A stretch of DNA of 64,000 nt from assembly GCA_009773475.1 (NCBI GenBank), contig WSXV01000001.1, positions 62,001-126,000 of the forward strand. The letters are read 5' to 3'. The stretch comes from Desulfobulbaceae bacterium (GTDB lineage Bacteria > Desulfobacterota > Desulfobulbia > Desulfobulbales > Desulfocapsaceae). Numbering within the stretch: position 1 is the first letter of the stretch; each line of letters begins with the position of its first letter. Under the pieces are notes generated by a model. It made no database searches and had not been told where the DNA came from. It saw only the letters and a list, made by a program, of their open reading frames with translations. This document shows positions 6,031 to 62,228 of this stretch, one piece after another. A program made the translations under genes and the position numbers.

Positions 6031-6110
6031 TTAGTGACTTACAGAATATGTTCTTGTTTTTGTTACAAGAACATATTCTGTAAGTCACTAATCCCGTTCA
6101 TCGGGGTTAG
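6031..6110 (+). repeat. Repeat A, copy 1 (complete, perfect hairpin)
   Basis: Two perfect 27-base inverted arms (6031-6057 and 6065-6091) begin TTAGTGACTTACAG and enclose a 7-base loop. A short second hairpin TCCCGTTCATCGGGGTTAG follows at 6092-6110. The same two-part arrangement recurs at 13522, 42964, 45169 and 58765. Here it fills the dapF-dapA gap and could affect read-through between them. There is no protein-coding content. Confidence 0.9.
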
Positions 6111-36819: not shown

Positions 36820-37863
36820 TTATTCATTCCAGGAAAAGAGCTTGGAGGCGAGGGTCAGGCAGAGGAGGGTGGTGATCACCAGGATGATACATTCACTCTG
36901 GACATCGACAAGGGTTGCCCCGTCATTCATGATCTTGCGGGCGGCGGTGAGCAGGTGGGTCAAGGGGAAAACCTTGGCCAGGGACTGCACCCAGGCGGGG
37001 GCGCCTTCGATGGAAAACCAGACCTCGGAGAGGAACATCATCGGCATGGAGATGAAGTTGAGGACACCGCTGGTGAACTCTTCACTGGTGCCGCGCGCTG
37101 CCAGGACCAGACCGATGGAACTCATGCTGAGGCTGCCCAGTAAAAAAACCAGGGCCAGGGCGCCATAACTGCCATGGACCTGGAAGTGGAAGATGAAGTT
37201 GGTGCCGATCCAGACCACAACGATGGTGAACATGATGAGAAAGATGCGGGAAAACATCTGGGCGCTCAGGTATTCCAACGGGGTCAGCGGTGTGGCCTTG
37301 AGTCGTTTCAGGGCTCCGTTTTTACGGTAGCGCACCACCACATAACCCACTCCCCAGAGGGCCGAAAACATCATGTTCATGGCCAGAATCCCGGGAAAAA
37401 GCCAGTCGATATGACGGATCTGGACTCCTTCAATACTCTTTTTTTCGGCAACATTTTGCCGGTCTTTGAGGAATGAGGCGAGGAAAATCTGTTCGACCAC
37501 AGCGCTCTGGGGGGAGGATTCGTTCATCCAGTAGCGGTGTTGCGGTGAGCGGACGTCAAGGAGCAGGTCGATTTTATGATGCTTCAGCTTTTCCGCACCC
37601 TCTTCCTGGCTGGCGAAATTGATGAACTGGAGGAATTTACCCTCCTGGAAGAAGGGCGGCACTGTGCTCTCACTGGCATTGACCTGGATGTCGGCAGGAA
37701 AGATGCCGATTTTGAATTGTTGCTGATCCTCGCCGCCATAGATAAAACCGAGGCCGACAATGATCAGAAAAGGGAAGGCAAAATTCCAGCCAAAGGCCGC
37801 CTTGTCGCGGAAAAACTCGTGATTCCTGGCCGTAAACATGGCCCACATGCGTTTGAAGTTCAT
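36820..37863 (-). CDS. ABC-2 type transporter permease
   Basis: A 347-residue ABC-2 permease. One N-terminal helix (about residues 22-42), a periplasmic domain to about residue 165, and five C-terminal helices containing GILAMNMMFSALWGVG and RLKATPLTPLEYLSAQ, followed by PMMFLSEVWFSIEGAP. It pairs with the ATPase gene upstream; repeat elements fill the gap between them. ATG 37863 is preferred. The frame extends to 37914 into repeat C, whose AAGGAGGGGG could imitate a ribosome site. Confidence 0.88.
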   Translation of the reverse strand: MNFKRMWAMFTARNHEFFRDKAAFGWNFAFPFLIIVGLGFIYGGEDQQQFKIGIFPADIQVNASESTVPPFFQEGKFLQFINFASQEEGAEKLKHHKIDLLLDVRSPQHRYWMNESSPQSAVVEQIFLASFLKDRQNVAEKKSIEGVQIRHIDWLFPGILAMNMMFSALWGVGYVVVRYRKNGALKRLKATPLTPLEYLSAQMFSRIFLIMFTIVVVWIGTNFIFHFQVHGSYGALALVFLLGSLSMSSIGLVLAARGTSEEFTSGVLNFISMPMMFLSEVWFSIEGAPAWVQSLAKVFPLTHLLTAARKIMNDGATLVDVQSECIILVITTLLCLTLASKLFSWNE

Positions 37864-37896
37864 GATATTTTTGAAATTGAGAGGTGCATATAAAAG

Positions 37897-37932
37897 CCCC
37901 CTCCTTTTTTTCAAGGAGGGGGTTGGGGGTGG
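37897..37932. repeat. Repeat C, copy 2
   Basis: CCCCCTCCTT and AAGGAGGGGG with a TTTTTC loop, followed by TTGGGGGTGG. It abuts repeat B copy 4. Confidence 0.8.
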
Positions 37933-37933
37933 T

Positions 37934-38130
37934 TTAGAGGCCGTAATGCAATAAGCAGTTACTGCTTTGCTCGCGTATTGGGCAACTCATTGGTTTCGAA
38001 TAACTTCTTTTGTTTTTGGTGGAGCCACGCCAGGAAACAGCTGGACAGATTGCTGTTTCCTGGGGCGCGGCATAAGAGGCCGTAATGCAATGAGCAGGTG
38101 AAGCCTTGCTCATTGTATAACGGCCTCTAA
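37934..38130 (-). repeat. Repeat B, copy 4, with terminal inverted repeats
   Basis: Begins TTAGAGGCCGTAATGCAAT and ends with the inverted form ATTGTATAACGGCCTCTAA. The core hairpin 38024-38076 has perfect arms CCAGGAAACAGC/GCTGTTTCCTGG flanked by GCCACG and CGCGGCATAAG. The closing hairpin is 38073-38129. The final CTA (38127-38129) is the TAG stop codon of the ABC ATPase gene on the minus strand. Confidence 0.88.
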
Positions 38131-39011
38131 TCTCTCAACCCTTTCCCGGTCAGACAGAGAAAAACATCTTCCAGATTGGAGGAATGGACCGCCATTTCCG
38201 AGAGATCAATATCGAGACCGAGCAGGGTGCTGAGCCCTTCATTTACCTGCCCTATTTCCATAACGATGGTGTCGTCGCGCCGCTTCCAGGGGAAGGGGAT
38301 GGCCGTAAGATTCGACTTGAAGGCGGATTCGGGGAGGAGAATAGAACTTTTCCGGCAATGGGTCTGGATCAGGCGGGCCGGGGTGTCCCAGGTGATGATA
38401 TTGCCCATGTCCATAATTGCCACCTCGTCACAGAGAGTTTCGGCCTCCTCCATGGAGTGGGTGGTCATGATGATGGTCTTGCCGTCTGCCTTGATGGAGC
38501 GGACGATCTCCCAGAGATTGCGCCGCGACTGGGGATCAAGGCCGGTGGACGGCTCATCGAGGAAGACCAGACGCGGCTTGTTGACCAGGGCCAGGGCCAG
38601 CATCAGGCGCTGCAGCTGGCCGCCCGAGAGCTGGTCGTTGCGTCGTTTCAGGATCGGCCCCAGGTCACAGCGCTCGGTCAGGGCATCAATGTCTTCCGGG
38701 TTCTTGTAGAGTTTGTGAAAGGAGAGCAGGGTCTCTTCGACGCTTAAAAAACTGAGCAGTGAGGTGTGCTGGAACTGGATGCCGATCTCTTCGCGGAACG
38801 ATGCGCGGCGCGGCTGTCCCTGATAGAGGATCTGGCCGCTGCTGGGGCTGATAATATCCTCAACCATCTCCATGGTGGTGCTTTTTCCGGCACCGTTAGG
38901 GCCGAGCAGGCCAAAGCAGATGCCCTCGCTCACCGAAAAAGAGACATCCTTTACGGCCTGATTGTCTCCGTAGGTTTTGCTCAGATGGATGACGTCAATG
39001 ATGTTGTTCAT
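38127..39011 (-). CDS. ABC transporter ATP-binding protein (ABC-2 exporter)
   Basis: A 294-residue ATPase with Walker A GPNGAGKST near residue 41, Q-loop IGIQFQ, signature LSGGQLQR, Walker B LVFLDEPSTGLD, H-loop TTHSMEEAE, and a C-terminal extension of about 80 residues typical of exporter ATPases (EDVFLCLTGKGLRD end). It is the partner of the downstream ABC-2 permease. ATG 39011 follows GGAG closely; the frame runs up to 39095. Its stop codon is provided by repeat B copy 4. The substrate is unknown. Confidence 0.92.
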   Translation of the reverse strand: MNNIIDVIHLSKTYGDNQAVKDVSFSVSEGICFGLLGPNGAGKSTTMEMVEDIISPSSGQILYQGQPRRASFREEIGIQFQHTSLLSFLSVEETLLSFHKLYKNPEDIDALTERCDLGPILKRRNDQLSGGQLQRLMLALALVNKPRLVFLDEPSTGLDPQSRRNLWEIVRSIKADGKTIIMTTHSMEEAETLCDEVAIMDMGNIITWDTPARLIQTHCRKSSILLPESAFKSNLTAIPFPWKRRDDTIVMEIGQVNEGLSTLLGLDIDLSEMAVHSSNLEDVFLCLTGKGLRD

Positions 39012-39242
39012 AGGCTCCAAGGCGGCAATATGCAAGATGCGTATTGCTGGAAATTCCGGGTCATGCTCCAAGTTCTCTCCTCGAAAAAAAAACAAGGGGA
39101 TGTCTCGAAGGGAAAGTTGTCATAAGGTAATTTCCCCGCAAGGGATGTCAAGTTGACAAGCAAATCAGATACCGTCAAGCCCCTCGGAGTCTCGCACCCT
39201 CGCTTGCCTGCAAAAGGACGATTTTCCTCCCGCCTCTGTGGC

Positions 39243-39995
39243 TTATATTCCGTTTTTCTTGTCACACGCTCCCTGGCCCAGAAACTTGGCCACCTGATCC
39301 GGGATCTCCTTGATCACTCGCTCATAGCAATCTTGGCAGATGCCATGGGTGAGGAGGACGTCGGAGTTTTTATGCAGGTAATCTTCCAGTGGTATCCAGA
39401 CATCATCGGTGTCCCGAATTTTTTTACAGTAGGAACAGATGGCAAGAAGCCCGCGCAGGGTCTTTAATTCGTATTTGGTTTTCTCCAGTTCCTCAACCTT
39501 GGCGATCAGGGTCTGGTTGATCATGGCCAAATCGGCGGTACGTTCCCGGACCCGATCCTTCAGCTCCAGGTTGTTCCGGTTCAGCTTCTCCACCAGCTCC
39601 CGATTATGCCGCTTGAGATGGTAGCGCTCGGTGGCCAGGGTGACCGTGATCAGCAGGTCGTCTTCACTCCAGGGCTTAAGAATGTAGCGGTAGACATGCC
39701 CCTCATTGATGGCGGCAATGATATCGGTAGGATCAGTATAGCCGGTGATGATGATCCGCTCGGCATAGGGGGCCAGCTCCCGTGCCCTGCTCAGCAGGTC
39801 GATCCCCTTCATCCCCGGCATCCGCTGGTCGCTGACCACCAGGGCGATATCCGGTTCCATATTCAGCACCGACAAGGCCTCCTCGCCGGAAAGGGCGGTA
39901 AGGATCTCGAAGTTGTCACAGAGCGCTTCCCTGAAATTGATAAGGTTGATCTCCTCGTCGTCCACATAAAGCACTTTGCTCAAATTCGTTTCCAC
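39243..39995 (-). CDS. Response regulator with coiled coil and Cys4 zinc-ribbon-like tail
   Basis: A 250-residue regulator. Receiver (1-125) with VDDEE, acceptor Asp56 in VVSDQRMPGMKG and KPW switch; a long coiled coil (about 130-185); then ICSYCKKIRDTDDVW...ICQDCYERV, a paired CxxC module often found at the ends of deltaproteobacterial signalling proteins. It has no DNA-binding domain, so output is probably through protein contact. It lies downstream of the sensor kinase on the same strand, separated by about 170 bases containing repeat-C-like DNA. Confidence 0.85.
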   Translation of the reverse strand: METNLSKVLYVDDEEINLINFREALCDNFEILTALSGEEALSVLNMEPDIALVVSDQRMPGMKGIDLLSRARELAPYAERIIITGYTDPTDIIAAINEGHVYRYILKPWSEDDLLITVTLATERYHLKRHNRELVEKLNRNNLELKDRVRERTADLAMINQTLIAKVEELEKTKYELKTLRGLLAICSYCKKIRDTDDVWIPLEDYLHKNSDVLLTHGICQDCYERVIKEIPDQVAKFLGQGACDKKNGI

Positions 39996-40167: not shown

Positions 40168-41832
40168 TCACCGCCGCCTGAGCGGCAGGATGATTTCAAA
40201 TTCGGCTCCCTTGTCTATTTCGCTCCGAACCAGGATCTTGCCCTGGTGTTTCCGAATGATCCCGTAGGAGATGGACAATCCCAGCCCCGTACCCTTCCAT
40301 GCCTCCTTGGTGGTGAAGAGGGGCTCAAAAATCCGGTCGATCAGCCCGGCGGGAATGCCGGGGCCGTTGTCTTTAAACAGGATGTGTGCTTGATCCGCCG
40401 CCAGCCAGGTGCGGATCAGGATGGCGCCTTGATCGGGCAGCGCCTGGATCGCGTTGAGCAGCAGGTTCATAAACACCTGATTGAGCTGGCCGCTGACCGC
40501 CTCCACCAAAGGCAGATCTTCGGCCAGCTCCATGGTCAACTGGATGCGATGCTTGAACTCCGGATAGGCCAGCGCAGTGGTGGTGTGCAGACACTGGTTG
40601 ATGTCCGTTGGGCCGGGCTGCTCGTCTGCCGGGCGGGCAAAGTTTTTAAGGTCGCCGACGATCTTGTTGGTGCGGCGCGCCCCCTCGCTGATATTCTCCA
40701 GAAGGATGTTCAGCTTGTTGAAGATGACCTCGCACCGCTCTTGATCCAGTGGCTTTCCGTCCGGCTGATGGAAGAGTTCGTTCAACTCTTTGAGCCGCTT
40801 GCGCAAGGGCGGCAGCGCTCCGCTGACAAAGTTGGTGGTATTGTTGATCTCGTGCGCCACGCCCGCCACCAGCCGACCGATGGCCACCATTTTTTCCGAC
40901 TGGGCCAGATGTGCGTGCGTTTCCTGGAGTTCGTTCAGGGCCTTTTGCAGCTCCCGGGTACGTTCCGTTACTTTCTGTTCCAGGTCATCTTTCAGGCCTT
41001 GAATGGTTGTGAAGGACTTTTCGAGATCCTTCACCAGATCGGCAAAGGTGTCGCCAAGCACGTCCACGTCGTCTGATTCCCCCTCTGCCTGATGGGTTTG
41101 CACCTTAATGGTGTTGATCAACTGTTGGAGCGGCGCCATGGTCATCCGGGTCAGCCTGTAAGTGGCAACCAGAGAGATAAGGAAGAAGAGCACGGTCAGT
41201 GCCGCAGTCTGGAGTGCAATCACTTTGGCGGCCTTGTTGAATTCGGTTTTGCATATCACCAACTGGGCGGAGCCAAGCAATGTTTTGCCCTCTGTTTGCT
41301 TGTCAATGTCAGGATTGGTCTCGAAGTAAAGGGCCTCGCTGCCTTTCTGGTCGCTCTGCACCGAGACCGGGGCTGTGAAGATAAGCAGATCGCCGTTCTC
41401 CCAGATATGGGTCTGATCACCTATGAGGTTAGAGGCCTGAAGGGCAACGGCCATAGAGGGGATGAGCTGTGATGGGGCGGGGTTGGGACGATTGTATCTG
41501 CCGAGTAATTGACGCAGGATCACCCCGCCTTTGGTATCGTACACCGTCACGGCATCGAGATGGAGATCGCTATTGATGGCTGTCACGGTCTCCACTGCCT
41601 GGTCCAAGCCGGCTCGATCGCTGAAAAACAACCCCGACTGGAGAGAGCCGGAGAGCAAGTTGACCATCATTGCTCCCTGCTGGTGAAGATGGCGTTTCAG
41701 TTCTTTTTGCTGGATCACCGTGAAGACTGTAGCGAAGGTTACGGCAAAGCCAAGCAGGATGAGGGACAAGGTCAACAGGATCTTGAGGTTGAGGCCCATC
41801 TTGGGCAGAACAGGTCGAGGGATATGGCTCAT
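40168..41832 (-). CDS. Membrane sensor histidine kinase
   Basis: A 554-residue kinase. First membrane helix 17-38, periplasmic sensor about 39-203, second helix 205-225, HAMP segment around RMTMAPLQQL, a coiled coil (275-310), acceptor His327 in GVAHEINNTTNF, and the ATPase domain with MNLLLNAIQAL, FKDNGPGIP and EPLFTTKEAWKGTGLGLSI. Its start overlaps the stop of the binding-protein gene by 4 bases, so the binding protein probably feeds its signal (inference). The response regulator downstream is the likely partner. Confidence 0.92.
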   Translation of the reverse strand: MSHIPRPVLPKMGLNLKILLTLSLILLGFAVTFATVFTVIQQKELKRHLHQQGAMMVNLLSGSLQSGLFFSDRAGLDQAVETVTAINSDLHLDAVTVYDTKGGVILRQLLGRYNRPNPAPSQLIPSMAVALQASNLIGDQTHIWENGDLLIFTAPVSVQSDQKGSEALYFETNPDIDKQTEGKTLLGSAQLVICKTEFNKAAKVIALQTAALTVLFFLISLVATYRLTRMTMAPLQQLINTIKVQTHQAEGESDDVDVLGDTFADLVKDLEKSFTTIQGLKDDLEQKVTERTRELQKALNELQETHAHLAQSEKMVAIGRLVAGVAHEINNTTNFVSGALPPLRKRLKELNELFHQPDGKPLDQERCEVIFNKLNILLENISEGARRTNKIVGDLKNFARPADEQPGPTDINQCLHTTTALAYPEFKHRIQLTMELAEDLPLVEAVSGQLNQVFMNLLLNAIQALPDQGAILIRTWLAADQAHILFKDNGPGIPAGLIDRIFEPLFTTKEAWKGTGLGLSISYGIIRKHQGKILVRSEIDKGAEFEIILPLRRR

Positions 41833-42785
41833 GGCTGACGCTCCTCTCCATAGATTTCATCCACCACCGCCTCGTTGATCGGCACTCCCATTTGCCGAAA
41901 GGCGCTGGTGTTGGCGATTATTCTCAGCCCGCGAGCCGGTTCCATCGGTATCGTCGCAGGCTTTGTGCCGGCCAGGAGGCGAGCCGCCATCGTGGCAGCC
42001 TGCCTCCCCATATCATCCATATCAAAGGTGATGGCAGCGGCGGCTCCGGCCTTGAGGTACTTCTCCGAGAAACTTATAATCGGGACCCGGTTGGCCATGG
42101 AGAATAGCCGCAGCTGCTCCATGGCCTGCGGGTTGGTGACCATCTCGTCCGGCAGCAGCCAATAGGCATCAATGGCGTTGCTCAGGCTTTGTAAGGCCTT
42201 GGGTAATTGGTCAGGGGAGGCAACCTTGCGAAACAGCAGGGTCTCCACCGCACTCACCTGATTCATAAGCGCCTCTTGCACCCACTGGCCGCTCACCGCC
42301 GGGTTATACAGGGCGCCGATGCGGTGCAGCTTGGGCATAAGCAGGCTCATTGCCTCCAGTTGCCGGGAAGGCAGGATGCGCAGGTCGATGCCGGTGAAGT
42401 TGGCGGGCAGGTTCTTTGCCGAAGGGGCCAGAAGAGTGAGGATGGGCGTGTCTTGCAGGTCACGGACGAACTCCAGGGCCGGATCGCCGATCACCACCAC
42501 CAGTTGCGCCTGTCGCAGTTGGTTTTGGAGGGAGATTTGTTTTTCCTGGGGTTGTTCTGAGAGCAGTATCTGTGTTACGGTGTTGCGGATAATGCTTTTG
42601 GGCCCCGAACGTGGCGGCTCGGCGTTCCACCCTTTTTCAAAGCCCTGACGGGCCTCTTCGTAGGGCTTCAAGGCGGACGATTGCAGCACAATGCACTCCT
42701 CTCCCCGGGCCGTAGCGGCCGACAGCAGGGCCAGAAACGGCAGGAGGAGAAACAACAGCGCAAAGATGTGAAGTCTATGTTTCAT
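41829..42785 (-). CDS. Periplasmic ABC-type substrate-binding protein (TrpX/PF04392-like)
   Basis: A 318-residue exported protein. The signal peptide (1-27) ends ATARGEE. The mature part has VVVIGDPALEFVRD, a TPILTLLAPSAKNLP strand, PSRQLEAMSLLMPKLHRIGALYNP and PIISFSEKYLKAGAAAAITFD, which is the pattern of the YtrB/TrpX-like ABC substrate-binding family (PF04392). No permease or ATPase is nearby. It is translationally coupled to the sensor kinase and divergent from the TonB receptor, suggesting use as a sensor accessory. Confidence 0.8.
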   Translation of the reverse strand: MKHRLHIFALLFLLLPFLALLSAATARGEECIVLQSSALKPYEEARQGFEKGWNAEPPRSGPKSIIRNTVTQILLSEQPQEKQISLQNQLRQAQLVVVIGDPALEFVRDLQDTPILTLLAPSAKNLPANFTGIDLRILPSRQLEAMSLLMPKLHRIGALYNPAVSGQWVQEALMNQVSAVETLLFRKVASPDQLPKALQSLSNAIDAYWLLPDEMVTNPQAMEQLRLFSMANRVPIISFSEKYLKAGAAAAITFDMDDMGRQAATMAARLLAGTKPATIPMEPARGLRIIANTSAFRQMGVPINEAVVDEIYGEERQP

Positions 42786-42936
42786 TAGGGGTATAGGGTC
42801 GGGGGGCGGCGAATTTGCTGCAATGCACCTTTTATCTAATAGGAAACTTTTTCATTTTGCAAGGTAAATGAGCCATCAGCGGCCGAAGGCTGTTCTGTTG
42901 GTTTTTCTCAAACCCTTTTTAACAAGGAATTCAAGG

Positions 42937-44958
42937 ATGACGTCCTCTGCTCAGTATTCCCGTTTAGTGCCTTACAGAGTATTTTCTTGTTTTTTTAGCA
43001 AGAAAATACTCTGTGAAGGGCACTTATCCCGTTCATCGGGGCTTGCCGGTGGTTTTTCCTCGCTGCTTGTCACCTTGCTCTGCGCCGCCCCAATCGCGGC
43101 GGCAGCCGATGGCGATCCCCTGTTGGCCATGTATTTCGACGACACCCAGATGGTGGAGTCGGCCACCCGCGCCGCCAAGCCCATCACCCAGGTGGCGGAG
43201 AATGTCACCGTTATCAGCGCGGAGGAGATCGACGCCATCCACGCCCAGAGCCTTTCCGAGGTGCTGAACCGGGTGGCCGGGGTCTCGGTGAGGATGACAC
43301 CGGAAGATTTCAACGGCGGTTCGCGGATTTTTATCCAAGGCAGCAGGGATGAGCATGTGCTGGTGTTGATCGATGGCGTCCGTCTCAACTCGGCCATGTC
43401 CGGGGCGGCTGATCTTGCTCACATCCCTCTGCGTATTGTCAAGCGCATCGAGATCATCAAGGGCCCGGGCTCTGCGGTCTGGGGCTCCTCCCAGGGCGGG
43501 GTGATCAATATCATCACCAAAAGTCCCGGGCCGGGCGGCAAGCCCACCGGTTCGGTGGCCGGCGAATTTGGCGAGCGTCAGGTGGGGGCCTACGAGGCGG
43601 ATATCGCTGGTAAGGTGGAGCGGGTCGGCTATTTTCTCTATGCCGGTCAGCAAGACTCCAATGGTCTTTTGAACAATCACTATTACGATGCGGGTCGGGC
43701 CTACGGCAAGATCACCGTTGATCTGCCGCACCAGGGGCTGCTCACCTTCTCCGGCATGGCCGTCGATCCCCATTACCGCACCGGCGATTTCGACTACGGG
43801 ACCCCCTATTTCAGTCAGGATGCCCGCGATCGCAGCCATTTTGTCACTGCCAACTACGACACACCGCTCACCGAATCGCTCCATCTCAATATCGGTGTCC
43901 GAGATTATGAGCGGAACTTCATCGACAACCGGGACATCCTCTCCTCCAGCCCGGAGGGCGACCCCGGCGCCTTGTTCTATCAGGCCAACTGGCATGAGCA
44001 GAGTCAGGGGGCCAATGGTCTGCTCACCTGGCACGACTCCTGGCAGCAGGTGGCCCTCGGGGCTGAGATCAACCGCAGTAAGATGGACACCGTTACTGAC
44101 TATGGCTCTTGGGCTCAGACCAATTGGTGGGCCCCGGCCCAGGATCTGTCAAAGCCTGGGGCTGAAGAGGTCTGGGGCCTCTTTATCAATGATACCATGC
44201 GCCTGGGTAAACTCACCCTTACCCCTGGTATCCGCTACGACCAACACAGCATCAGCGGCTCCATGGTCAGCCCATCCCTGGGTGCGACCTATCTGCTCCG
44301 GCCGGACACCCTGCTGCGGGGCACGGCCGCGCGCGGCTTCCAGTACCCCATCCTCTCCTATATTGCCGGTGGCGGTATCTGGGACAACCCCAATACGCAG
44401 CTCCAGCCGGAAGAAGTCACCTCGTTTCAGGTGGGGGTGGAGAACCGCAGCCTTTCCTTTATGAGCGTCAAGATGGACGCCTTCCTTCACCATGTCACCG
44501 ATACCTGGGGCGTTGATTATAGCACCGGAGCCGTAACCAACGGTGGAAAAAGCGAGCGCAAGGGCTTCGAGGCGGAGCTGGAGACCACCCCCTGGCATGA
44601 CCTGAGCCTGGCCACCAACGCCACTTACACCCTGTTGACCCCGGAGGACGAGCAGGAAGAGGACGATTCTTCCACCGCCACCAACCTGATCCTGCGCTAC
44701 CGTGATACAATCGGCTGGAAAGGTGAGCTGGCCGGCCATTATATCTGGTGGACCTCGGACAAGGTCGCGGGGCTGACGGGGCAGGCTGCGGATATGACCT
44801 GGAACCTCAGTCTAGGCCGTACCGTTTACAGCTCCGAATGGCTGTCCTGTGAACTCTACGCTAAGGCGTACAACCTTTTCAATGGCAACGCCACTTCAGA
44901 TAGTTATTATCCTATGCCGGGCCGCTGGCTGCTGGCCGGTATGCGGGTGACTTTCTGA
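42937..44958 (+). CDS. TonB-dependent outer-membrane receptor
   Basis: A 673-residue receptor. Plug domain (about 80-200): ENVTVISAEEIDAI, LNRVAGVSV, IFIQGSRDEHVLVLIDGVRLN, IEIIKGPGSAVWGSSQGGVINIITK. The barrel to the end closes with LLAGMRVTF (terminal Phe). It imports a ligand using TonB energy; the ligand is unknown. ATG 42937 is 8 bases behind AAGGAA. Residues 10-36 are encoded by repeat A copy 3, so the signal-peptide n-region comes from a repeat; the hydrophobic core FSSLLVTLLCAAPIAAAA follows. An alternative ATG at 42868 has no ribosome site. The peptide and maturase genes follow. Confidence 0.92.
   Translation: MTSSAQYSRLVPYRVFSCFFSKKILCEGHLSRSSGLAGGFSSLLVTLLCAAPIAAAADGDPLLAMYFDDTQMVESATRAAKPITQVAENVTVISAEEIDAIHAQSLSEVLNRVAGVSVRMTPEDFNGGSRIFIQGSRDEHVLVLIDGVRLNSAMSGAADLAHIPLRIVKRIEIIKGPGSAVWGSSQGGVINIITKSPGPGGKPTGSVAGEFGERQVGAYEADIAGKVERVGYFLYAGQQDSNGLLNNHYYDAGRAYGKITVDLPHQGLLTFSGMAVDPHYRTGDFDYGTPYFSQDARDRSHFVTANYDTPLTESLHLNIGVRDYERNFIDNRDILSSSPEGDPGALFYQANWHEQSQGANGLLTWHDSWQQVALGAEINRSKMDTVTDYGSWAQTNWWAPAQDLSKPGAEEVWGLFINDTMRLGKLTLTPGIRYDQHSISGSMVSPSLGATYLLRPDTLLRGTAARGFQYPILSYIAGGGIWDNPNTQLQPEEVTSFQVGVENRSLSFMSVKMDAFLHHVTDTWGVDYSTGAVTNGGKSERKGFEAELETTPWHDLSLATNATYTLLTPEDEQEEDDSSTATNLILRYRDTIGWKGELAGHYIWWTSDKVAGLTGQAADMTWNLSLGRTVYSSEWLSCELYAKAYNLFNGNATSDSYYPMPGRWLLAGMRVTF
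42964..43045 (+). repeat. Repeat A, copy 3 (inside the receptor gene)
   Basis: TTAGTGCCTTACAGAGTATTTTCTTG pairs with CAAGAAAATACTCTGTGAAGG; then TATCCCGTTCATCGGGG. It is fully inside the translated 5' part of the TonB receptor gene and is read in frame. Confidence 0.9.
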
Positions 44959-45038
44959 GTCAGGACTTACAGGCCGCGCAGATTTTACCCATGAACTATG
45001 GTGGTTCTGGGCTTAACCTTAATTGAAGGAGGTATGAC

Positions 45039-45167
45039 ATGGATGTAGAAAAAAATGAAGAGGTCGTCGTCTTGGATTGTGGCAAGGAACCGGAGGAGGT
45101 GGCGGTTGAGGCTGCTTGTTGTGTAGGTAGGCCCAGTGCGGCCTCTTCCGGCTCTATCGATCGCTAA
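45039..45167 (+). CDS. Candidate RiPP precursor peptide (42 residues)
   Basis: A tiny open frame from ATG 45039 with an excellent ribosome site GAAGGAGG (45025-45032). The product starts MDVEKNEEVVVLDCGKEPEE, an acidic leader-like half, and ends with ACCVGRPSAASSGSIDR, a Cys/Gly/Ser-rich half. Cysteines are at positions 14, 27 and 28. It lies 80 bases after the TonB receptor and before a radical SAM/SPASM enzyme, the standard setting of a peptide precursor. Modification is inferred from context. Repeat A copy 4 starts 1 base after the stop. Confidence 0.72.
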   Translation: MDVEKNEEVVVLDCGKEPEEVAVEAACCVGRPSAASSGSIDR

Positions 45168-45168
45168 C

Positions 45169-45248
45169 CTAACCCCGATGAACGGGATAAGTGCCTTTCG
45201 CAGATTATTTCCTTGTAAAAAAACAAAAAAATAATCTGTAAGGCACTA
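45169..45248 (-). repeat. Repeat A, copy 4
   Basis: Reverse orientation: CTAACCCCGATGAACGGGATAA, GTGCCTTTCGCAGATTATTT, loop, AATAATCTGTAAGGCACTAA. It occupies most of the gap between the peptide and maturase genes. Confidence 0.9.
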
Positions 45249-45254
45249 AAAGCC

Positions 45255-45286
45255 GGCCCTTTGAGGGAGCCGTTCCTCAAAGGGCC
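45255..45286 (+). promoter_or_regulatory. Perfect 12-base hairpin before the radical SAM gene
   Basis: GGCCCTTTGAGG (45255-45266) pairs perfectly with CCTCAAAGGGCC (45275-45286) around an 8-base loop. No T-run follows. It ends 17 bases before the maturase ATG. It may be a processing or attenuation site setting the peptide-to-enzyme ratio (inference). Confidence 0.6.
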
Positions 45287-45303
45287 ATTCTCCGAGCCCT
45301 GTC

Positions 45304-46605
45304 ATGCCCCTTTCCCATTATCTGAAAATCTACCCCCTGACCGGCCAGCCGGAGAAACGGCTACTCTTCTCCACTAGAACCGGCGGTCTGGCCATGGTTA
45401 GCGGCGAGGCTCTGGCTGCCATTGAGGACAACAGCGCCAGTCCCGAGCTGACCGCATCTCTGGCCAAACTTTCCATGGTGGTGGACGATCCGGCCCGTGA
45501 GCAGAAAGAGATGGGCGGCTACCTTCAAAAGCTCAATCGCTTGAATCCCAATCTGCGGGTGGCAGTGATCCTGGGCATGGCCTGCAACTTCGCCTGTGTC
45601 TATTGCTACGAGGGCAGCCTCAAGGGGACGGCTGCCATGAGCGACGCCACCGCCGACCAACTGGCGGTCTTTTTGCTGGCCCGGTTCAGCGCTGGCAAAA
45701 AGAAGCGTCTCATCCTGGATTTTTACGGCGGTGAGCCGCTGCTCTATGTTCAGCGCATCATATATCTGGCTGAGCGTCTCAAACCGGCCATCGAGGCGTT
45801 GGGCGGTATTTTTGAGTTTACCCTGGTGAGTAACGGGTCGCTGCTTATCCCAACGGTGGTGGAGGAGCTGGTTGCCCTGGGGCTTCAGAGCGTCAAGGTT
45901 ACCATTGACGGGCCAGCGGCCAATCATAACCACTTCCGCCCCTTTAAGGACGGACGCGGCAGCTGGTCGATCATCGTTGAGAACCTTCTGGCCTGCCGGG
46001 GCCTCTGCCTTATCACCCTGAGCGGCAACTACACCGCCGAGAATCACGCCCTCTTTCCCGCCTTGCTCGATGTCCTGACCGAAAGGGGGTTTGCGCCCGG
46101 CGATTTTGCCAGCGGCCAGTTCTATCCTGTTATGCAGATCAACGATCAGTTTGCAAACCCCGAATTCACCGGCGGTTGCTGCTCTAACGATGATCCCTGG
46201 GTGCACGCCGCCTCGCTGGCCCTGCGCGAGGAGATCATGCAGCGGGGCTTTACCTACCCTAAACTGTATCCAAGTCCCTGCATGGTGGACGTTGATGATG
46301 CTTTTACCGTGGACCATGACGGGACCATCTACAAGTGTGTCGCTCTAATTGGTCACCGGGAGCTGGCTTGTGGCGACATTTGGCGTGGAATGGGCGAGGA
46401 CTGGCGGCAGGCCTGGTGTGTAAATCACTGGAAAAACGAGGCCCAATGCTGTGACTGTGTGTATCTGCCCCTTTGCTTTGGCGGCTGCCGTGCCATGGCC
46501 TTCCAGCGTGACGGCCACATGGCGCAGGTGGACTGCCAGCGCTCGCTGTTTGATGCCACCCTGGAACCGATGCTCCTGCAGGATCTCAAGGTTCGCTATG
46601 GATGA
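45304..46605 (+). CDS. Radical SAM/SPASM peptide maturase
   Basis: A 433-residue enzyme. An N-terminal segment (MPLSHYLKIYP...LLFSTRTGG) precedes the radical SAM motif CNFACVYC (Cys94, Cys98, Cys101) and FYGGEPLL; a C-terminal SPASM region has cysteines in SPCMVD, YKCV, ACGDI, WCVN, CCDCVYLPLCFGGC and DCQRS, ligands for two auxiliary Fe-S clusters. This is the layout of enzymes that cross-link ribosomal peptides. The N-terminus recalls the Geobacter geopeptide-type maturases (from memory, unverified). ATG 45304 lacks a clear ribosome site. The likely substrate is the 42-residue peptide upstream. Confidence 0.9.
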   Translation: MPLSHYLKIYPLTGQPEKRLLFSTRTGGLAMVSGEALAAIEDNSASPELTASLAKLSMVVDDPAREQKEMGGYLQKLNRLNPNLRVAVILGMACNFACVYCYEGSLKGTAAMSDATADQLAVFLLARFSAGKKKRLILDFYGGEPLLYVQRIIYLAERLKPAIEALGGIFEFTLVSNGSLLIPTVVEELVALGLQSVKVTIDGPAANHNHFRPFKDGRGSWSIIVENLLACRGLCLITLSGNYTAENHALFPALLDVLTERGFAPGDFASGQFYPVMQINDQFANPEFTGGCCSNDDPWVHAASLALREEIMQRGFTYPKLYPSPCMVDVDDAFTVDHDGTIYKCVALIGHRELACGDIWRGMGEDWRQAWCVNHWKNEAQCCDCVYLPLCFGGCRAMAFQRDGHMAQVDCQRSLFDATLEPMLLQDLKVRYG

Positions 46606-58713: not shown

Positions 58714-58764
58714 GGGTAAGGTTATTGGATATTCAGAGAAAGAAATTTGTTTTTAATTTTGTGT

Positions 58765-58845
58765 TTAGTGACTTACAGATTATTTTCTTGTTTTTTTAAA
58801 AGAAAATAATCTGCGAAAGGCACTTATCCCGTTCATCGGGGTTAG
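58765..58845 (+). repeat. Repeat A, copy 5
   Basis: TTAGTGACTTACAGATTATTTTC, T-rich loop, GAAAATAATCTGCGAAAGG, then CACTTATCCCGTTCATCGGGGTTAG. It lies between the convergent ends of hemC and the DNRLRE gene and may act as a shared 3' end. Confidence 0.9.
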
Positions 58846-61891: not shown

Positions 61892-62228
61892 ATAAAATTA
61901 CCCTCTGAACAATGGACATAATTGTGCGAATGTTTGAAGAGTTTTTTTGTCCTCCACCTACCACTTACTACTGCGGCTTGGCTCTACTATGAGAAACCTG
62001 ACACAAAAAATGTGACCAGGATATTATTTTATATAGTCCTGAATGACGTGATCGAGCAGATATCGCCAGCCTGCCTCAGGGGGGCCTGAACCATCGGGTA
62101 CGAATAAATTATTGCGTTAAAATGAAAAAATGGGAATAGTACAGATAGAAGGATGAGGCGTCGAATGCCCCACCCTTCTGTTTCACAACCAGGGCGCAGA
62201 AATAATTTATTTATTTCTGCGCTCTACC
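61892..62228. other. Gap with 12-base hairpin next to the 62229 gene
   Basis: About 340 bases with no gene. GCGCAGAAATAA (62194-62205) and TTATTTCTGCGC (62211-62222) form a perfect hairpin 7 bases beyond the stop of the minus-strand gene, probably its 3' end structure, though no T-run follows. Upstream signals of the HEAT gene are not evident. Confidence 0.45.

Follow-up and report, generated by a model that had tools for sequence, protein, structure and literature searches.

What is made from a 42-residue cysteine-containing peptide encoded between a TonB-dependent receptor gene and a radical S-adenosylmethionine (SAM)/SPASM enzyme gene in a Desulfobulbaceae bacterium, and what do the neighbouring gene products do with it? 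We addressed this question in a stretch of 64,000 nucleotides (positions 62,001 to 126,000 of contig WSXV01000001.1, assembly GCA_009773475.1), hereafter called the window, whose own numbering is used throughout. An earlier note, made from the DNA letters and a list of their reading frames, had proposed that the peptide and the enzyme form a system for a ribosomally synthesised and post-translationally modified peptide (RiPP). We find a genuine RiPP system at this locus, belonging to a catalogued family, the geopeptides; new here are the module of receptor, binding protein and histidine kinase and a wider peptide family. With moderate confidence we regard the locus as encoding a geopeptide-type RiPP together with a dedicated module for recapturing and sensing it. 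The genes at its centre are:

45039..45167, + strand, precursor peptide of 42 residues, with leader VVVLDCG, a core with CC (27, 28) and a 14-residue tail
45304..46605, + strand, radical SAM/SPASM peptide maturase of the geopeptide type, 433 residues, matching TIGR04280 and containing CNFACVYC
42868..44958, + strand, TonB-dependent outer-membrane receptor (Plug E 9.1e-24, barrel E 1.2e-29)

The gene following the peptide was confirmed at 45304-46605 as the radical SAM/SPASM gene with CNFACVYC that the earlier note had described. Its product scored 475.7 bits against the NCBIfam model TIGR04280, "geopeptide radical SAM maturase" (cut-off 400), over residues 1-430. Among the best 25 NCBIfam models, other peptide-maturase models stayed far under their cut-offs, and the general SPASM domain model alone also passed. 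The earlier note had missed that the system is already catalogued, the maturase being a member of a predicted family. In the open-access literature searched we found no paper using either geopeptide family name (TIGR04229 or TIGR04280), and none on the combination of radical SAM, TonB and RiPP. SPASM domains show the cysteine pattern CX9-15GX4C, CX2CX5CX3C and a further C. Both this set and the radical SAM CX3CX2C motif are present in the maturase: C94, C98 and C101, as well as C326-G340-C345, C382-C385-C391-C395 and C411, were found in 52/52 aligned maturases (window included), and C292 in 50/52.

An AlphaFold2 model of the maturase, built on 19 sequences (predicted local distance difference test score, pLDDT, 86.9), had 5why as its best solved-structure match (template modelling score 0.68 on the query, root-mean-square deviation 9.5 for the whole alignment, 18% identity), and a profile search placed 5wgg first (E 8.7e-28). 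These entries represent a thioether-forming enzyme, which we take to be CteB, and this is the nearest solved relative both by sequence and by fold. The CteB/SCIFF maturases and the ranthipeptide maturase PapB have the same radical SAM plus SPASM plan and related NCBIfam models, but the maturase studied here scores far below the cut-offs of those models. A difference is also seen in the peptide: PapA, a ranthipeptide of the PapB type, carries a Cys-X3-Asp/Glu motif (PMC9413430), whereas the window peptide has three cysteines without this motif, which is absent after C27 and C28, with P18 at that spacing from C14.

Of 395 genomes sampled from the phylum, 31 had a TIGR04280 match above the cut-off, as had 61 of 257 genomes of the order, a distribution that is widespread but patchy. 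The phylum survey gave 47 maturase places: the window itself, 41 that were taken with their flanks, and five below the cut-off or partial that were left out. The first set comprised 59 maturase places, 53 of them family members and six (L085-L090) distant maturases of 28-33% identity, which score below the cut-off and were treated separately; L034, L046 and L050 were dropped as duplicate contigs of L078, L083 and L074. The held-out set consisted of 40 stretches of the same order, chosen to favour flanking sequence and not at random. They contained 41 maturase places, of which 28 were left after removal of 13 identical to earlier ones.

The peptide gene begins at ATG 45039, preceded by GAAGGAGG, and its stop codon ends at 45167; the encoded sequence is MDVEKNEEVVVLDCGKEPEEVAVEAACCVGRPSAASSGSIDR. 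With a pattern that had been shaped on previously viewed loci and in which CC was compulsory (leader motif plus CC in a same-strand open reading frame, ORF, at most 800 bp upstream), a peptide was detected at 48 of the 59 maturase places (47/53 in the family, 1/6 among the distant ones), compared with 0/59 on the antisense strand and 29/1180 in Markov-resampled sequences. A second test without the CC requirement (leader motif plus Shine-Dalgarno, within 400 bp) gave a match at 40/53 family loci; CC was present in 40/40, and the single antisense match was the genuine inverted peptide of L071. The unchanged pattern recovered 24/28 held-out peptides (antisense 1/28), and in the remaining four the peptide was recognised by inspection, either farther upstream (L104, L107) or missed by the pattern or length limit (L108, L121). 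In the first set, the peptides of L035, L070, L071 and L075 were recognised by eye, and the stretches of L077 and L079 were too short upstream for the presence of a peptide to be judged. A Shine-Dalgarno tally over the aligned peptides (49/49) used a very loose pattern, some trimmed starts being probably internal, and is not counted as evidence.

Alignment of 53 peptides, most of which had been selected for CC, showed CC as the sole invariant feature, with M1, L12 and G15 at 90% or more. The leader of the relatives resembles VLDxG, and the tail after CC is 7-15 residues long in 53/54 peptides. The earlier note had listed Cys 14, 27 and 28; the pair at 27 and 28 is indeed conserved, but a Cys at the place of Cys14 occurs in 6/54 peptides only (window and closest relatives), and Cys14 was therefore dropped as part of the chemistry. 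Whereas the maturase passes its cut-off over its whole length, the peptide falls far below that of the geopeptide model TIGR04229, with a weak alignment of 10.7 bits (E 0.38, cut-off 30). This model matches 18/53 aligned peptides at E 1 or better. The window peptide is nonetheless encoded next to a TIGR04280 maturase, a criterion of membership that we derived from the family names. The short length of the 42-codon frame and its low geopeptide score might suggest a chance ORF, an explanation that is virtually precluded by conservation beside distant maturases and by antisense and resampled controls near zero. We conclude that 45039-45167 is a real gene and a member of a conserved peptide family. 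The coordinates of the frame and its Shine-Dalgarno site hold, and the check named in the earlier note gave the predicted outcome: related maturases are accompanied by homologous peptides with a C-terminal Cys. That peptide and maturase constitute a substrate-enzyme pair, also proposed earlier, is nearly certain in view of these counts.

The second half of the question concerns the neighbours. The earlier note had drawn the cluster as receptor, peptide and maturase; these three stand, and it had overlooked three genes that lie to the left:

41829..42785, - strand, periplasmic substrate-binding protein of the ABC_sub_bind family (PF04392 E 7e-25)
40168..41832, - strand, sensor histidine kinase (PF02518 E 4.1e-22)
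39243..39995, - strand, response regulator (receiver domain PF00072 E 3.4e-17), adjoining the kinase in close relatives

A TonB receptor gene was located near the maturase in all 49 family loci with at least 2.3 kb upstream and in 26/26 held-out loci, giving 75/75; loci with less than 2.3 kb upstream (L040, L070, L077 and L079, which gave no TonB match, and the held-out L110 and L113) were excluded from this count. These results support the view, already expressed in the earlier note, that the receptor belongs to the system. A PF04392-type binding protein matching that of the window was present in 44/46 loci within 9 kb and in 22/24 held-out loci within 6.5 kb (66/70). By comparison, the window's genome contains four plug-domain and three PF04392 matches in its 3.03 Mb, which speaks for the association. 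Of the 38 loci whose upstream sequence reaches 5.7 kb or more, 32 have a histidine kinase within 9 kb, a weaker statement since the kinase query was broad. In the window group and in many other loci the receptor gene lies upstream of the maturase in the same direction; it is divergent in L051-L056, L058-L060 and L071, and in L057 it is found downstream. In L039 the receptor, binding protein and maturase genes occur twice in tandem, and likewise in L055, there with kinases. Gene order and orientation vary, yet the set remains together. Clustering of neighbouring ORFs (at least 70 aa, 51 loci, up to 9 kb where the stretch allowed, E 1e-10) revealed no other gene in more than eight loci, the eight-locus set being an antisense overlap of the maturase.

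Within the window, the kinase gene and the binding-protein gene share a 4-base overlap, and the kinase has a weak sCache_4 match (21 bits, cut-off 22.1). No permease was seen adjoining the binding-protein gene. The binding protein is similar to amino-acid-binding proteins; among solved relatives with a named ligand, 3lft (L-Trp) is the closest. LuxP and TorT, which act as partners of sensors, are also among its fold neighbours (ranks 10 and 49); in LuxP-LuxQ and TorT-TorS a binding protein works with a membrane histidine kinase, and the likeness found here is one of common fold only. The receptor has two in-frame ATGs, at 42868 and at 42937, the latter preceded by AAGG and taken as the start in the earlier note.

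Maturase and receptor distances were correlated (Spearman 0.64, 46 loci, 0/999 permutations; relatedness uncontrolled), and the correlations with the binding protein were weaker (0.42 and 0.36, 43 loci); L040, L085-L090 and short or misassigned proteins were excluded from this analysis. Among 11 loci from two-maturase genomes, maturase and receptor had the same nearest outside relative in four (L039, L039b, L082 and L083). The linkage is thus strong in place, and the pairing by descent is not strict.

A further element lies between the peptide and maturase genes:

45255..45286, + strand, hairpin of 14 pairs, the native part with z -4.3

The peptide-maturase interval folded with z < -2 in 31/46 family loci, compared with 2/46 and 2/44 for two control stretches of matching length taken inside the maturase gene. 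The hairpin also occurs in the relative L031. It lacks a T run in the window, and in some loci (e.g. L040 and L041) it resembles an intrinsic terminator with a T run. It is probably an attenuator or an mRNA stabiliser.

From these observations we propose the following scheme. The hairpin would keep the maturase substoichiometric to the peptide and so set the peptide:enzyme ratio. The N-terminal domain of the maturase, a candidate for a winged-helix leader-recognition domain (RRE) and modelled as three strands and two helices (residues 7-55), would hold the leader strand (VLDxG) while the enzyme links one or both CC thiols to neighbouring residues as thioethers, each with a loss of 2 Da. As judged from the maturase family and the nearest structure, which also point to the Cys pair as the site of cross-linking, the formation of a thioether is reasonably probable. 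A housekeeping protease may then trim the leader, and an unlinked exporter may release the product. The TonB receptor would import the product, alone or with cargo such as metal; in the periplasm the binding protein would capture it and signal through the kinase and the response regulator. The constant linkage points to the product as the ligand of receptor and binding protein, and on balance we favour the view that these two proteins and the kinase act on it. More tentatively, the arrangement may represent a self-sensing metallophore or pheromone loop, spread through the phylum, in which a dedicated receptor, binding protein and kinase report to the cell on the modified CC peptide that it has itself made. 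Metal as the cargo is somewhat more doubtful still: in an alignment of 45 rows, neither Cys nor His was conserved in the binding protein at any column in more than half of the sequences (a few Met columns came near half), which together with 3lft holding L-Trp counts against metal, and the His columns of the receptor (28 to 40 of 48 rows) are neutral in this respect.

Several observations, the lack of conserved Cys or His columns in the binding protein included, weigh against the proposed recapture and sensing of the product. Shared ancestry alone could yield the distance correlation, and in 7/11 loci from two-maturase genomes the nearest relatives of maturase and receptor differ, indicating that the two have not always travelled together. 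The kinase query was broad, and the response regulator has no further Pfam domain and no recognised output domain. The tail after CC ranges from Ser/Ala/Pro-rich to hydrophobic. No shared exporter or protease was found by the 51-locus clustering, from which short or strongly diverged genes would escape; within these limits, the earlier statement that the cluster holds neither agrees with what is seen in the relatives. Finally, of the three other receptors encoded in the window's genome, two lie side by side, with periplasmic binding protein and ATP-binding cassette (ABC) transporter genes downstream. About 6 kb, including genes for a helicase and a further binding protein, separate the third (contig C24) from a PF04392 protein, kinases and a response regulator, so that such neighbours are not unique to the maturase locus. 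The divergent, adjacent arrangement of receptor and binding protein was unseen elsewhere in this genome, and C24 carries a looser version of it.

The C24 locus and the 7/11 mismatches lowered our confidence and raised that in another explanation, namely that another nutrient (an amino acid, a peptide or a tetrapyrrole) is imported and sensed by the receptor, binding protein and kinase, and that the cell responds by making the modified peptide, whose site of action would be elsewhere in the cell or its envelope. The likeness of the binding protein to amino-acid binders and of the receptor plug to BtuB, its closest match, agrees with this, as does the lack of a shared exporter in the clustered loci. 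We nevertheless consider it rather unlikely: a receptor in 75/75 loci, kept through varied gene orders and tandem duplications, is a better fit to a peptide-specific partner. Alternatively, the product might be a secreted antimicrobial of microcin or sactipeptide type, with the TonB receptor as its target or as self-protection. Differences in the core tail between lineages speak for this, and bacteriocins are known among the short Cys RiPPs that SPASM enzymes produce. It would leave the binding protein and kinase unexplained, and the clustering found no accessory gene in common, be it an exporter, a protease or another, which makes this explanation improbable. As to the chemistry, SPASM enzymes carry out many reactions. 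The fold search additionally ranks TigE, anSME and ChlB, and the receptor has weak matches to transporter models and structures for pyrroloquinoline quinone (PQQ); the product might accordingly be a peptide with epimerised residues or carbon-carbon links, or a small cofactor derived from the peptide, as in the PQQ pathway, that is later retrieved by the TonB receptor. This is unlikely in view of 5why/5wgg being the best match by structure and by sequence, and of two cysteines being the sole invariant residues of the peptide (CC was required for most rows, and the CC-free test agrees).

For the preferred reading, a modified peptide that is recaptured and sensed, methanobactin offers the closest parallel. 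In methanobactin systems, genes for the receptor and the binding protein are found beside that for the Cys peptide. The TonB transporter MbnT imports the loaded peptide MbnA and the OppA-related binding protein MbnE binds the peptide in the periplasm (PMC7558416); the likeness comprises a modified Cys peptide, a TonB receptor and a periplasmic binding protein. Methanobactin, which binds copper, is modified by MbnB/MbnC. The locus differs in having a radical SAM enzyme, a PF04392 protein instead of an OppA-related one and a histidine kinase nearby, and a link to copper is a candidate only. By this analogy, recapture and reporting appear similar in logic. The constant receptor and near-constant binding protein provide a handle, as the mature peptide should bind the products of neighbouring genes; if it does, we would be dealing with either a counterpart of methanobactin made by a radical SAM enzyme or a signalling loop based on a peptide.

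Some candidates were rejected. An ABC-2 transporter (36820-39095, beside the response regulator) was considered as the exporter; among L031-L090 a close copy of its ATPase was found in L078 only, where it adjoins the response regulator, and a weak match in L071. L074 gave no match despite 9 kb upstream, and in L031-L038 the sequence taken stops short of the position concerned; a lineage-specific exporter is possible. An MsbA-like ABC transporter had matches in three loci only (L045, L042 and L071). In L031 and L033 the maturase is followed by genes for a Fur-type regulator, peroxiredoxin, desulfoferrodoxin and rubredoxin, none of these was matched in L032 and L038, and they were not retained as a module; the Fur-type regulator and peroxiredoxin are also downstream in L034/L078, where the stretch ends. 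A binding protein-kinase fusion in L042 was taken as an assembly fault, its frame crossing an unknown base and apparently out-of-frame sequence. Searches against Rfam gave one tRNA only, those against plasmids four records at about 25% identity, and those against PHROGs a single weak match of unknown function.

With a threshold of E 1e-20, a receptor ORF was detected near 2/6 of the distant maturases, and at E 1e-5 any TonB match near 4/6; the TonB link may therefore reach beyond the maturase family. About 200 bases upstream of one of them (L087) we observed a CC peptide of another kind (KIARKGCKNPAAVAAAGCCPSVGK...), and a TonB receptor lies close by; this below-cut-off maturase and its peptide perhaps represent a sister family. 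In L083, one maturase is preceded by two consecutive CC peptides. The maturases of L065, L067 and L068 have an additional C-terminal domain of ~270-300 residues, in which Pfam gave no match for the two that were scanned.

The locus also contains two copies of a palindromic element:

45174..45252, no strand assigned, dispersed palindromic element copy of 79 bases, between peptide and maturase
42967..43044, no strand assigned, second copy of 78 bases, in frame and ahead of the receptor signal region

This element of about 80 bases has at least 40 copies in the window's genome (40 of 71 candidates scored); in the window, copies are also found at about 58764-58845 and at 6031-6110. For both copies at the RiPP locus a strong hairpin was obtained on folding (z -8.6 and -9.0), and both are missing from the relative L031. 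The element is an insertion and not part of the RiPP system. Its in-frame copy in the TonB receptor gene recalls the palindromic elements of Rickettsia.

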